Of a stretch of 64,000 nucleotides of DNA, positions 61,306 through 64,000 are shown piece after piece. Source of the stretch: Paenibacillus daejeonensis DSM 15491 (lineage in GTDB: Bacteria > Bacillota > Bacilli > Paenibacillales > Paenibacillaceae); contig NZ_KB899661.1 in the NCBI RefSeq assembly GCF_000378385.1, positions 162,816 to 226,815 of the forward strand. Reading direction: 5' to 3'. Numbering within the stretch: position 1 is the first letter of the stretch; every line of letters starts with the position of its first letter. Made by a program: the position numbers and the translations under genes. The notes beneath the pieces were generated by a model. The model ran no database searches. It was given only the letters and a program-made list of their open reading frames with translations, and was not told the origin of the DNA.

Positions 61306-62091
61306 TTAGTATTTGGCCGACTGTGCGCCATCAATCGGAATAATCGTTCCGTTCAGGAATGGCGAATCGCCCGATAGCAGATAAGCGACCAAGTGACCAA
61401 TTTCCTCCGGTTTGCCCAGCCGCTTGGCCGGATTCTCCTTCACAAATTCCTTGGCTGCAGATTCCCAATCATTCGGATTGATCTGCTTGAACGAGCCAAT
61501 CACCATATCCGTCAGGATTGCACCCGGTGCAATCGCATTCACACTGATACCATGCTCGGCATATTCGATGGCCGCGTCCTTGGTCATCCCGGCAACTGCA
61601 TGCTTGCTGGCCCCGTAGGCAATCTGATTCATGACAGCGCGGATTCCGCCCACCGATGAAGTGTTGACGATATAGCCGCTCTTCTGCTGCTTCATGACAG
61701 GCAGGACGTGCTTCAGTCCATAGAAGACACCCTTGAGATTGATTGCAATGACCTTGTCAAAAATACTGCTGTCGTAGTCCTCGGTCAAGGCCTGCTTGCC
61801 TTCGATACCGGCATTGTTGAAGAAGCCATCGACCCGTCCAAAACGTTCCATCGTCTCGCTGACGTACCGCTGAACAGCCGCTTCATCCGACACGTCAGCA
61901 GTTAGAAGCAATATTTCTCCGGCAGCGCCCGAATCCGTAATTTGCTGCTTGGTTGCTTCCAGACCCTCCATCTTAATATCAACCAGCGACAGATGAGCGC
62001 CCTCCGCTGCCAGCTGCAGCGCAGCTGCCCGCCCCAAGCCAGATCCGCCCCCTGTAATCACGACCACTTTGTTATTAAACCGTCCTGCCAT
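61306..62091 (-). CDS. Short-chain dehydrogenase/reductase, second
   Basis: A 261-residue NAD(P) oxidoreductase with TGGGSGLG near residue 14, NNAGIEG, catalytic Ser in NTSSVGG and YGASK. GGAGGAG lies before the ATG. It stands alone and the substrate is unknown. Confidence 0.9.
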   Translation of the reverse strand: MAGRFNNKVVVITGGGSGLGRAAALQLAAEGAHLSLVDIKMEGLEATKQQITDSGAAGEILLLTADVSDEAAVQRYVSETMERFGRVDGFFNNAGIEGKQALTEDYDSSIFDKVIAINLKGVFYGLKHVLPVMKQQKSGYIVNTSSVGGIRAVMNQIAYGASKHAVAGMTKDAAIEYAEHGISVNAIAPGAILTDMVIGSFKQINPNDWESAAKEFVKENPAKRLGKPEEIGHLVAYLLSGDSPFLNGTIIPIDGAQSAKY

Positions 62092-62185
62092 TCCTACTCC
62101 TCCTTGTATGCATAGCTGTACTCCTTCGCTAGTATGGACAGAGAGCGCTGGATTTATCAGCCTTTTCTGGGGACGGGTGTCGTGT

Positions 62186-62191
62186 TATGCT
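62186..62191 (+). promoter_or_regulatory. Extended -10 of the rlmA leader transcript
   Basis: TGTTATGCT (TG at 62183-62184, TATGCT at 62186-62191) would start a leader of about 180 nt. The -35 is weak. Confidence 0.45.
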
Positions 62192-62229
62192 AGAGGAGTC
62201 ATTTCCATAGAAAAAGGATGCGAGAAAGC

Positions 62230-62265
62230 ATGTCCCATTACATTCGTTATATGCGTTTAAGGTAA
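62230..62265 (+). CDS. Leader peptide MSHYIRYMRLR of the rRNA methyltransferase gene
   Basis: An 11-residue open frame, AAGGA upstream; an in-frame ATG at 62218 is less likely. It ends MRLR directly before the stop. Macrolide-stalled leader peptides such as ErmDL (MTHSMRLR...) stall at the same Arg-Leu-Arg (+X+) motif. It precedes a terminator-like hairpin (62268-62341) and an rRNA methyltransferase gene, the usual setting of ribosome-mediated attenuation. Confidence 0.7.
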   Translation: MSHYIRYMRLR

Positions 62266-62267
62266 GC

Positions 62268-62341
62268 AAGGCACAACGGGAAAAGCGTCGGGCACTCGTA
62301 AAAAAACGAGCATAGCCGCGCTTATTTGTTGTGCCCTTTTG
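62268..62341 (+). terminator. Conditional terminator (attenuator) in the rlmA leader
   Basis: GGCACAAC (62270-62277) pairs with GTTGTGCC (62328-62335). Inside, AAGCG-CGG-CTCGT pairs with ACGAG-GCCG-CGCTT around an A-rich loop, and CTTTT follows. In addition CATTCGTT in the leader frame (62241-62248) is exactly complementary to AACGAATG (62353-62360), just before the methyltransferase start, so an alternative fold is available. Confidence 0.75.
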
Positions 62342-62377
62342 CATTCACCTAAAACGAATGAATGGGGTGCTTTTTTT

Positions 62378-63268
62378 GTGCTGGAATTAAACCGTAAAAT
62401 CCGTGCAGCTCAGCTGCTTACCTTACATGATGCTCTGTTTCTATGTCCACACTGCCGGGGCACGCTGCATCTCTCTGATGACCACAGCATGGTCTGCCCG
62501 GCTAACCACCGCTTCGATCTGGCTCGTGACGGTTATCTCCCCTTGCTTGGTCGCCCCTATACGGGGAGCGAACGCTATGATCGCGAGCTGTTCATCGCCC
62601 GTCGCCGCGTTCATCAGTTCGGTTTCTTCCAGCCACTGCAGGAAGCCATCGAGCAGGAGCTGCGGCCGCTGACGAGTGCATGCCAGCTTTACCGGCTGCT
62701 GGACGCCGGATGCGGGGAAGGCTCGCTGCTCGCAGATCTGATCAGCAGGCTCGTTACCCGGACGGAAGCGCCGATCCTTGGCGTTGGTCTCGACTTGGCC
62801 AAGGACGCCATCCTCACCGCTGCCAAGCAAGATGCAGCCAGCACCCTCTGGTGTGTCGGCGATCTGGCGGCAGTCCCGTGTGCCAGTCAGTCTTTTGACG
62901 TGATCCTGAATATCCTGTCTCCCTCCAACTACCCCAGCTTCCACCGTCTGTTGGCACCTGGGGGCCAGGTCATCAAGGTGATGCCGGGACCGCACTACCT
63001 GCAGGAGCTGCGACAGCTACTATATGGCGATCACACAGTGCCCATGAAAGGCACAGCCAGCATGGCCCGGTTCAGGGACGCTTTCCCGGTATGCCGACAA
63101 CGTCGTATTACAGGGCGTATGGTCCTCGAAGGCCCGTTGATCCATGACATGCTGCGGATGACTCCCCTGGCCTGGCGCGCACCTGCTGCAGCACTTGAGG
63201 CCATCCACCGGTTGGGCCAGTTGGAGGTGACACTCGACTGGGTTCTCGTAGTCGGCCAGTCGAACTAA
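62378..63268 (+). CDS. 23S rRNA (guanine-N1)-methyltransferase, RlmA family
   Basis: A protein of about 296 residues. The N-terminal zinc finger reads CPHC-x14-CPANH, then RFDLARDGYLPLL, as in RlmA(I) and RlmA(II)/TlrB. The SAM motif is LLDAGCGEGSLL near residue 110, followed by FDVILNILSPS. RlmA enzymes modify G745 or G748 in the exit-tunnel region; the Gram-positive type affects macrolides such as tylosin. The start is GTG 62378 (GGGGTG upstream); a TTG at 62339 lies inside the attenuator. Confidence 0.87.
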   Translation: MLELNRKIRAAQLLTLHDALFLCPHCRGTLHLSDDHSMVCPANHRFDLARDGYLPLLGRPYTGSERYDRELFIARRRVHQFGFFQPLQEAIEQELRPLTSACQLYRLLDAGCGEGSLLADLISRLVTRTEAPILGVGLDLAKDAILTAAKQDAASTLWCVGDLAAVPCASQSFDVILNILSPSNYPSFHRLLAPGGQVIKVMPGPHYLQELRQLLYGDHTVPMKGTASMARFRDAFPVCRQRRITGRMVLEGPLIHDMLRMTPLAWRAPAAALEAIHRLGQLEVTLDWVLVVGQSN

Positions 63269-63360
63269 CATTCCATCGCCTTTCCACCATCATACAATCG
63301 GCCCTCGCACGCCGGGAACTGCGGCGGAAAGAGATAGGACCGTCGTTGCAGCGGCGGGAT

Positions 63361-63390
63361 TTGTCCTGACTCGCACTGGACGAGTATAAT
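63361..63390 (+). promoter_or_regulatory. Sigma-A promoter of the aldo/keto reductase gene
   Basis: TTGTCC (63361-63366), 18 bp, TATAAT (63385-63390), 30 bp before the ATG. Confidence 0.6.
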
Positions 63391-63420
63391 AAGGCCAACA
63401 TGAATAAGGAGATGATCCGT

Positions 63421-64000
63421 ATGCACTATCGCAGACTGGGAGGCAGCGGGCTGCAGGTGTCAGCCCTGGGCCTAGGCACCAACGCCTTCGGCAAACGTGC
63501 GAATGCCAAGGATTCGAAGCGTGTCATCGATACCGCCATCGAGCTGGGCATTACGTTCCTCGACACCGCCAACATCTATGCCCGCACCGCCTCCGAGACC
63601 ATTCTAGGGGAGGCGCTGCTAGGCCGCCGGGAGCATGTGATCCTTGCCACTAAGGCTGGACTTCCAACTGGTGACGGACCGTATGATCGCGGCTCCTCGC
63701 GGCATCATCTAATGCGTGAACTCGAGGGCAGTTTACAGCGGCTGCAGACGGATTACATCGACCTGTACCAGATTCACACCTTCGATCCCGACACGCCGCT
63801 CGAGGAGACTCTGCGGACCCTGGAGGATATGGTCAGCTCCGGCAAGGTCCGCTATATCGGCGCCTCCAATTATGCGGCGTGGGAGCTCATGAAGGCGCTG
63901 GGTATAAGCGACCGGCTAGCCCTGCCGCGGTATGTCTCGATGCAGACGAGCTATTCCTTGGCTGATCGTACGCCCGAGCAAGAACTGGTGCCGCTGTGTC
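63421..64000 (+). CDS. Aldo/keto reductase, cut by the window edge
   Basis: The first 193 residues of an NADPH-dependent reductase. MHYRRLGGSGLQVSALGLG starts it, with Asp and Tyr in FLDTANIYARTA, Lys in VILATKAGLPT and His in YQIHTFDP completing the catalytic tetrad. AAGGAG precedes ATG 63421; a second ATG at 63400 is in frame but less well spaced. The frame is open to the window end. Confidence 0.93.
   Translation, partial: MHYRRLGGSGLQVSALGLGTNAFGKRANAKDSKRVIDTAIELGITFLDTANIYARTASETILGEALLGRREHVILATKAGLPTGDGPYDRGSSRHHLMRELEGSLQRLQTDYIDLYQIHTFDPDTPLEETLRTLEDMVSSGKVRYIGASNYAAWELMKALGISDRLALPRYVSMQTSYSLADRTPEQELVPLC

Follow-up and report, generated by a model that had tools for sequence, protein, structure and literature searches.

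A divergent tlrB-type leader with an internal duplication before an RlmA-type methyltransferase gene, and the same leader RNA before other macrolide-resistance genes

The methyltransferase locus and its leader frame

In a 64-kb stretch of the Paenibacillus daejeonensis DSM 15491 genome (the whole of the DNA that was analyzed, hereafter the window), a methyltransferase gene is preceded by a very short reading frame and a hairpin, which raises the question of whether the gene is controlled by a macrolide-sensing leader and, if so, to which known leaders it is related. The gene lies on the + strand at positions 62378-63268, starts with GTG and encodes a protein of 296 aa (P0001). This protein matches PF21302 (Zn_ribbon_RlmA) with 38.1 bits against a cut-off of 27, its methyltransferase domains are also above their cut-offs, and its only close solved structure is that of E. 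coli RlmA(I) (1P91, E 1.6e-31). The NCBIfam models for the G745 and G748 enzymes match P0001 as well, all of them below their cut-offs. In a tree of 80 homologues P0001 sits on a long branch, outside the gammaproteobacterial set and within a supported Bacillota set together with homologues from Paenibacillus chibensis, P. algorifonticola and Bacillus swezeyi, and the most similar of the homologues found shares 46% identity with it. Because the tree groups P0001 with the Bacillota homologues, RlmA(II) activity (G748) is likely. The initial annotation had called the gene an RlmA-type methyltransferase, and both the PF21302 match and the placement in the tree bear this out.

The upstream neighbor is an SDR-type oxidoreductase gene on the - strand (61306-62091), and the downstream neighbor is an aldo/keto reductase gene beginning at 63400 or at an internal ATG at 63421. 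Comparison of positions 62092-63399 with the same site in another genome of the genus (G004:C49:67672-67867) found both neighbors conserved, with the leader and rlmA missing. The flanks adjoin in that genome, and the missing stretch (approximately 62165-63355) holds the candidate promoter, the leader and the gene. Since most same-genus genomes also lack a full-length homologue of P0001, the leader and the gene behave as an accessory unit, and on this evidence either gain here or loss there would account for the difference.

The leader frame, MSHYIRYMRLR, extends from an ATG at 62230 to a TAA stop codon at 62263-62265 on the + strand, with the stop placed right after the Arg-Leu-Arg ending that had been pointed out initially. 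A candidate Shine-Dalgarno sequence (SD) for the leader peptide, AAGGA, is located at 62214-62218 (+ strand) with the ATG 11 nt downstream, and AGGAG-type sites are found at similar spacing before the leader frames of relatives. Eight ATG-started frames of 7-13 codons ending in R-x-R occur on the two strands of the window, and from this count about 0.018 would be expected in the leader's intergenic stretch. A sigma-70 scan upstream of the leader gave no two-hexamer promoter. As a candidate promoter element, TGTTATGCT (62183-62191, + strand) resembles an extended -10 with no good -35, and could imply a leader RNA of ~180 nt; the B. subtilis tlrB leader has a length of 177 nt (PMC6851288). Within 75 nt upstream, 86 of 98 relatives contain a TATAAT-like hexamer with 0-1 mismatch, a count made without a shuffled control.

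Membership in the tlrB leader class

A covariance model, R1, was aligned from 34 relatives with the window left out. Against the window R1 finds the element with 59.8 bits (E 3.7e-12), and against the whole 7.46-Mb genome the leader is the only locus found (E 4.3e-10). Reverse-strand matches of R1 were rejected as second elements, being mirror images of the near-palindromic hairpin. The B. swezeyi leader, which was outside the training set, is found by R1 at E 5.7e-20, and its peptide, MIIQFIRYR, is identical to that of B. subtilis tlrB (yxjB). Leaders before rlmA homologues encode MIHYIRLR, MIHFIRLR, MIIQFIRYR, MIIQFIRLR, MIIKFIRLR and close variants, and with R1 run on both strands a leader of this class was present at 90 of the 109 rlmA homologue loci tested in the order (27 of 29 and 63 of 80). 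In an alignment of 50 sequences including the window, the two helices consist of standard pairs at 94.8%, against 27–51% in slid controls. Four pairs of the hairpin stem show double changes; the SD helix shows none, hardly varies and is therefore backed more by conservation than by covariation. The distance from the leader stop to the end of the SD is 104 nt in the window and mostly 98-110 nt in relatives. The window copy has the lowest model score among the 44 members compared. Searching Rfam with the leader gave no family at threshold, and the best matches (E 2.1 and 8.4) were taken as chance.

By RNA homology, then, the window leader is a divergent member of the known tlrB (yxjB) attenuator class and calls for no new mechanism. 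The initial annotation had cited antibiotic-responsive termination at B. subtilis yxjB as a precedent, and both this homology and the published work (PMC6851288) make it the right one. Its suggestion of a macrolide-sensing attenuator gains from the tlrB homology (E 3.7e-12); the likeness to ErmDL on which it had drawn gives way to tlrB as the nearest relative.

Two further leaders of the class, L306 (G053:C7:20624-20762) and L282 (G002:C10), stand before an rlmA-like gene that is truncated or strongly divergent, which suggests gene decay with the leader left behind. Some other rlmA homologues, in Paenibacillus, are preceded by an ErmDL-like leader instead, reading M-V/I-H-Y-I-R-L-R-x-x-A-L-N-K and variants, ~270-350 nt before the rlmA match (L099, L177, L191, L193, L198-L202, L204, L205, L209 and L212). 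Judged from their sequences, these leaders are a second leader class for rlmA-type genes.

Pairing, hairpin and duplication within the leader

An 8-nt complementarity between the leader frame and the sequence just before the gene had been noticed at the outset. It is real, joining CATTCGTT (62241-62248) to AACGAATG (62353-62360), and is part of a longer helix that buries the SD of the methyltransferase gene. The pairing is prolonged by CCCATT (62234-62239) with AATGGG (62361-62366), with one bulged A between, so that the anti-SD arm CCCATT-A-CATTCGTT (62234-62248, + strand) within the leader frame and the 3' arm AACGAATGAATGGG (62353-62366, + strand) form a helix of 14 bp and one bulge. This helix overlaps part of the gene's SD, GGGGTG (62364-62369, + strand), which is mostly paired in the predicted ensemble, and the whole leader has a predicted fold of -68.7 kcal/mol (z -4.7). 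Sequestration of the SD is the best conserved switch of the leader.

Folding and alignment place the attenuator hairpin at 62266-62342 (+ strand), with a core of GGCACAAC (62270-62277) paired to GTTGTGCC (62328-62335). Described initially as a stable terminator hairpin, it is indeed strong (-34.9 kcal/mol, z -4.7, 0 of 200 shuffles as good), but its tail is poor, and it went unflagged in the terminator scan. The stem foot contains an A.C mismatch and ends GTGCC-C-UUUU-G (C-TTTT-G in the DNA). In relatives the tails are mostly U5-U6 directly after the stem, and a tail starting with C was found in 0 of 95 parsed relatives, with roughly a quarter of the parses unreliable. In B. subtilis tlrB, where the terminator itself is weak and NusA-dependent, termination was lost when the hairpin was cut down and two C came after it (PMC6851288); termination in the window copy is therefore probably weak, and with its terminator foot weakened, control probably falls mainly to the SD-sequestering arm. 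The 3' arm of the hairpin also carries TTATTT (62322-62327, + strand), in a conserved place and matching the NusG pause motif TTNTTT; this motif has been described as insufficient on its own for pausing (PMC12288461), and it occurs between leader and SD in all 98 of 98 relatives. Covering the hairpin's 5' arm allows GUGCCC (62331-62336) to pair with the SD in GGGGUGC, with seven U directly after, and in the folding model this pairing is a possible third leader structure.

Alignments with relatives identified a tandem 9-nt near-repeat in the leader frame, TACATTCGT / TATATGCGT (Tyr-Ile-Arg / Tyr-Met-Arg; 62239-62256, + strand), the second unit of which spans 62248-62256. The codons of the window leader are ATG TCC CAT TAC ATT CGT TAT ATG CGT TTA AGG TAA, and a leader of the MIHYIRLR type (L088) reads ATG ATT CAT TAC ATT CGT TTA AGG TAA. 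The near-duplication extends the peptide to 11 residues against the usual 8-9, and a few relatives are possibly longer as well (10-12 residues, via alternative starts). Because general position and length are what is spoken of for these leaders (PMC6851288), we take the 11 residues as variation and not as class-defining. The first unit, TACATTCGT, retains perfect pairing with AACGAATG; the second, TATATGCGT, has lost its fit to the RNA pairing and places Met-Arg ahead of Leu-Arg. We infer that pairing and arrest motif, which lie on shared codons in relatives, are split between two copies here. The pattern Y-I-R-Y-M-R-L-R-stop was absent from the 394 other genomes among the 395 of the order that were searched, and the window leader offers a natural variant for telling drug-sensing codons from RNA-switch codons.

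In B. subtilis, yxjB has been renamed tlrB and encodes RlmA(II); ribosomes stall in a tylosin-dependent manner at the RYR end of its leader peptide, MIIQFIRYR, NusG-dependent pausing buys time for translation of the leader, and control is exerted by both transcription and translation attenuation (PMC6851288). Erythromycin does not induce tlrB (PMC6851288). At the window locus the parts, the predicted pairing and the RNA homology are observed, and we read them, with a probability of about 0.85, as a dual attenuator of the tlrB type that controls the gene for an RlmA(II)-like 23S rRNA methyltransferase; stalling, pausing, termination and the identity of the drug would follow B. subtilis by analogy. 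Without drug, ribosomes would complete the 11-codon leader and depart, upon which the leader frame would pair with the gene's SD and the intervening hairpin would favor termination, leaving the gene nearly off. When a macrolide occupies the exit tunnel (tylosin or another 16-membered compound being most likely), the ribosome would stall with its P site on Leu10 and its A site awaiting Arg11, these being the two codons expected there. With its front near 62273, such a ribosome would cover the hairpin foot and a large part of the anti-SD arm (62234-62248), and we propose that transcription read-through and a usable SD are the consequence. The enzyme would then methylate helix 35 of 23S rRNA (at G748, by homology), drug binding would weaken and the system would be switched off again.

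Masking the stalled ribosome changes the predicted terminator stem from -40.9 to -28.6 kcal/mol (RNA ending at 62342). Release of the SD on masking was seen neither in the window fold nor in those of relatives including the B. swezeyi leader, and over 87 leaders the mean unpaired fraction of the SD in masked-ribosome folding was 0.18 stalled versus 0.23 free. Under masking the SD stays paired, since GUGCCC, the freed 3' arm, finds a partner in GGGGUGC, and the release step therefore rests on the B. subtilis experiments. We regard the missing release as probably a limit of equilibrium folding.

The alternative with most to recommend it, to which we give somewhat less than an even chance, is that the same leader works almost purely on translation, so that the hairpin does not terminate and only sequestration and relief of the SD matter. 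The A.C pair at the stem foot, the C before U4-G and the silence of the terminator scan would fit this reading, as would the intact 14-pair SD helix. Against it stand the strength of the hairpin core and the fact that in B. subtilis, too, the terminator is weak and needs NusA (PMC6851288), so some termination may remain in the window copy. We hold it to be rather unlikely that the duplication changed the drug spectrum, such that the YMRLR ending would give a response to erythromycin and ketolides as in ErmDL and not a tylosin-specific one. MRLR does correspond to ErmDL residues 5-8, and ErmDL stalls in the presence of erythromycin and telithromycin (PMC8298421); a change of specificity in the course of leader divergence has been suggested as possible by Yakhnin et al. 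(PMC6851288). Residues further up the tunnel matter too, however, as MDTLNRLR is non-stalling (PMC8298421), and both the RNA and the downstream gene are of the tlrB kind.

The lowest model score, the insertion in the leader and the damaged terminator foot could also mark a decaying relic, with leader and hairpin inherited, regulation lost and expression of the gene fixed. This seems improbable, as the reading frame, its RLR ending, the SD, the 14-bp helix and the pause motif have all been kept despite a protein identity of at most 46%. That a random short frame should merely have come to lie before an ordinary terminator is scarcely credible: the shortness of the frame is all that speaks for such a chance resemblance, against an R1 E-value of 3.7e-12 and an expectation of 0.018 such frames. 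The tlrB-type dual attenuator remains our preferred reading of the locus.

The leader RNA before other resistance genes and comparison with known systems

Matches to R1 are found in 142 of the 395 genomes of the order. Away from known rlmA genes, 44 such places were examined and their downstream genes compared with reference proteins: 28 lead to an Erm-type gene, 10 to an alpha/beta hydrolase and four to divergent or broken rlmA-like genes, with one O-methyltransferase and one place without a match. The leaders before Erm-type genes (L263-L271, L273-L275, L279, L281, L285 and L288-L300; leader at ~100-240, in match orientation) encode peptides such as MCCIAFIRIR and MCVQFMRLR in Paenibacillus-type genomes. 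Those before the alpha/beta-hydrolase macrolide esterase genes (L272, L277, L278, L280, L283 and L301-L305) mostly contain a frame reading ...IIKFIRLR. The NF000499 model (23S rRNA methyltransferase Erm) was matched above its curated cut-off by two of two Erm-type proteins tested, and NF052610 (macrolide esterase) likewise by two of two hydrolases tested. Leaders of both groups mostly end in RLR or RIR; 38 of 38 have GAATGA upstream of the SD and 36 of 38 have TTNTTT. The place before the O-methyltransferase-like gene (L276, G054:C1:42349-42491) is a weaker R1 match of 80 bits with no recognizable leader frame, and could be either a relic or no true member.

Macrolide esterases of this family act on and raise resistance to 16-membered, and not 14- or 15-membered, macrolides, and the report on these enzymes in Gram-positive bacteria makes no mention of a leader or of attenuation (PMC12704417). 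The open-access papers searched contained no description of erm or esterase genes preceded by the tlrB leader RNA. An earlier survey listed 180 leader peptides from Gram-positive bacteria and was confined to those upstream of tlrB homologues (PMC6851288), to which the link with erm and esterase genes is an addition. From RNA homology and gene identity, one portable attenuator is the simplest reading, and it appears probable that the tlrB leader is a portable sensor RNA for 16-membered macrolides that in Paenibacillus-type bacteria stands before unrelated rlmA, erm and esterase genes, with the window as a variant in which a duplication splits pairing and arrest. Its presence before 16-membered-specific esterases and erm genes supports sensing of 16-membered macrolides and predicts inducible resistance, and the R1 model could uncover further unrecognized macrolide-resistance genes. 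In our view the interest lies in the unusual window variant and, more so, in a leader common to three kinds of resistance gene.

With respect to known systems, the vmlR leader of B. subtilis (PMC9226507) is similar in that a resistance gene is controlled by pausing together with attenuation of both transcription and translation (PMC12288461), a likeness taken from published descriptions; vmlR differs in its ABC-F gene and its other inducers. ErmDL begins MTHSMRLR, as the initial annotation had stated (PMC8298421), and the window leader shares with it the +X+ arrest motif in its MRLR form. The gene downstream of ErmDL is an erm gene (ermD), unlike the RlmA-type gene here. The ErmDL peptide continues beyond RLR, for example with FPTLNQ, whereas in the window leader the stop follows directly (compare the M.HYIRLRFPALNK leader class). 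From tlrB itself the window copy differs in its 11 residues with the Tyr-Ile-Arg/Tyr-Met-Arg duplication in place of MIIQFIRYR, in a single stop codon where tlrB has tandem stops, in its weakened terminator foot and in its GTG gene start. It shares with tlrB a downstream RlmA gene, a short leader ending in R-x-R, a hairpin after the leader stop, an SD paired with the leader frame, the TTNTTT motif, a predicted leader length of ~180 nt and, by covariance model, a homologous RNA.
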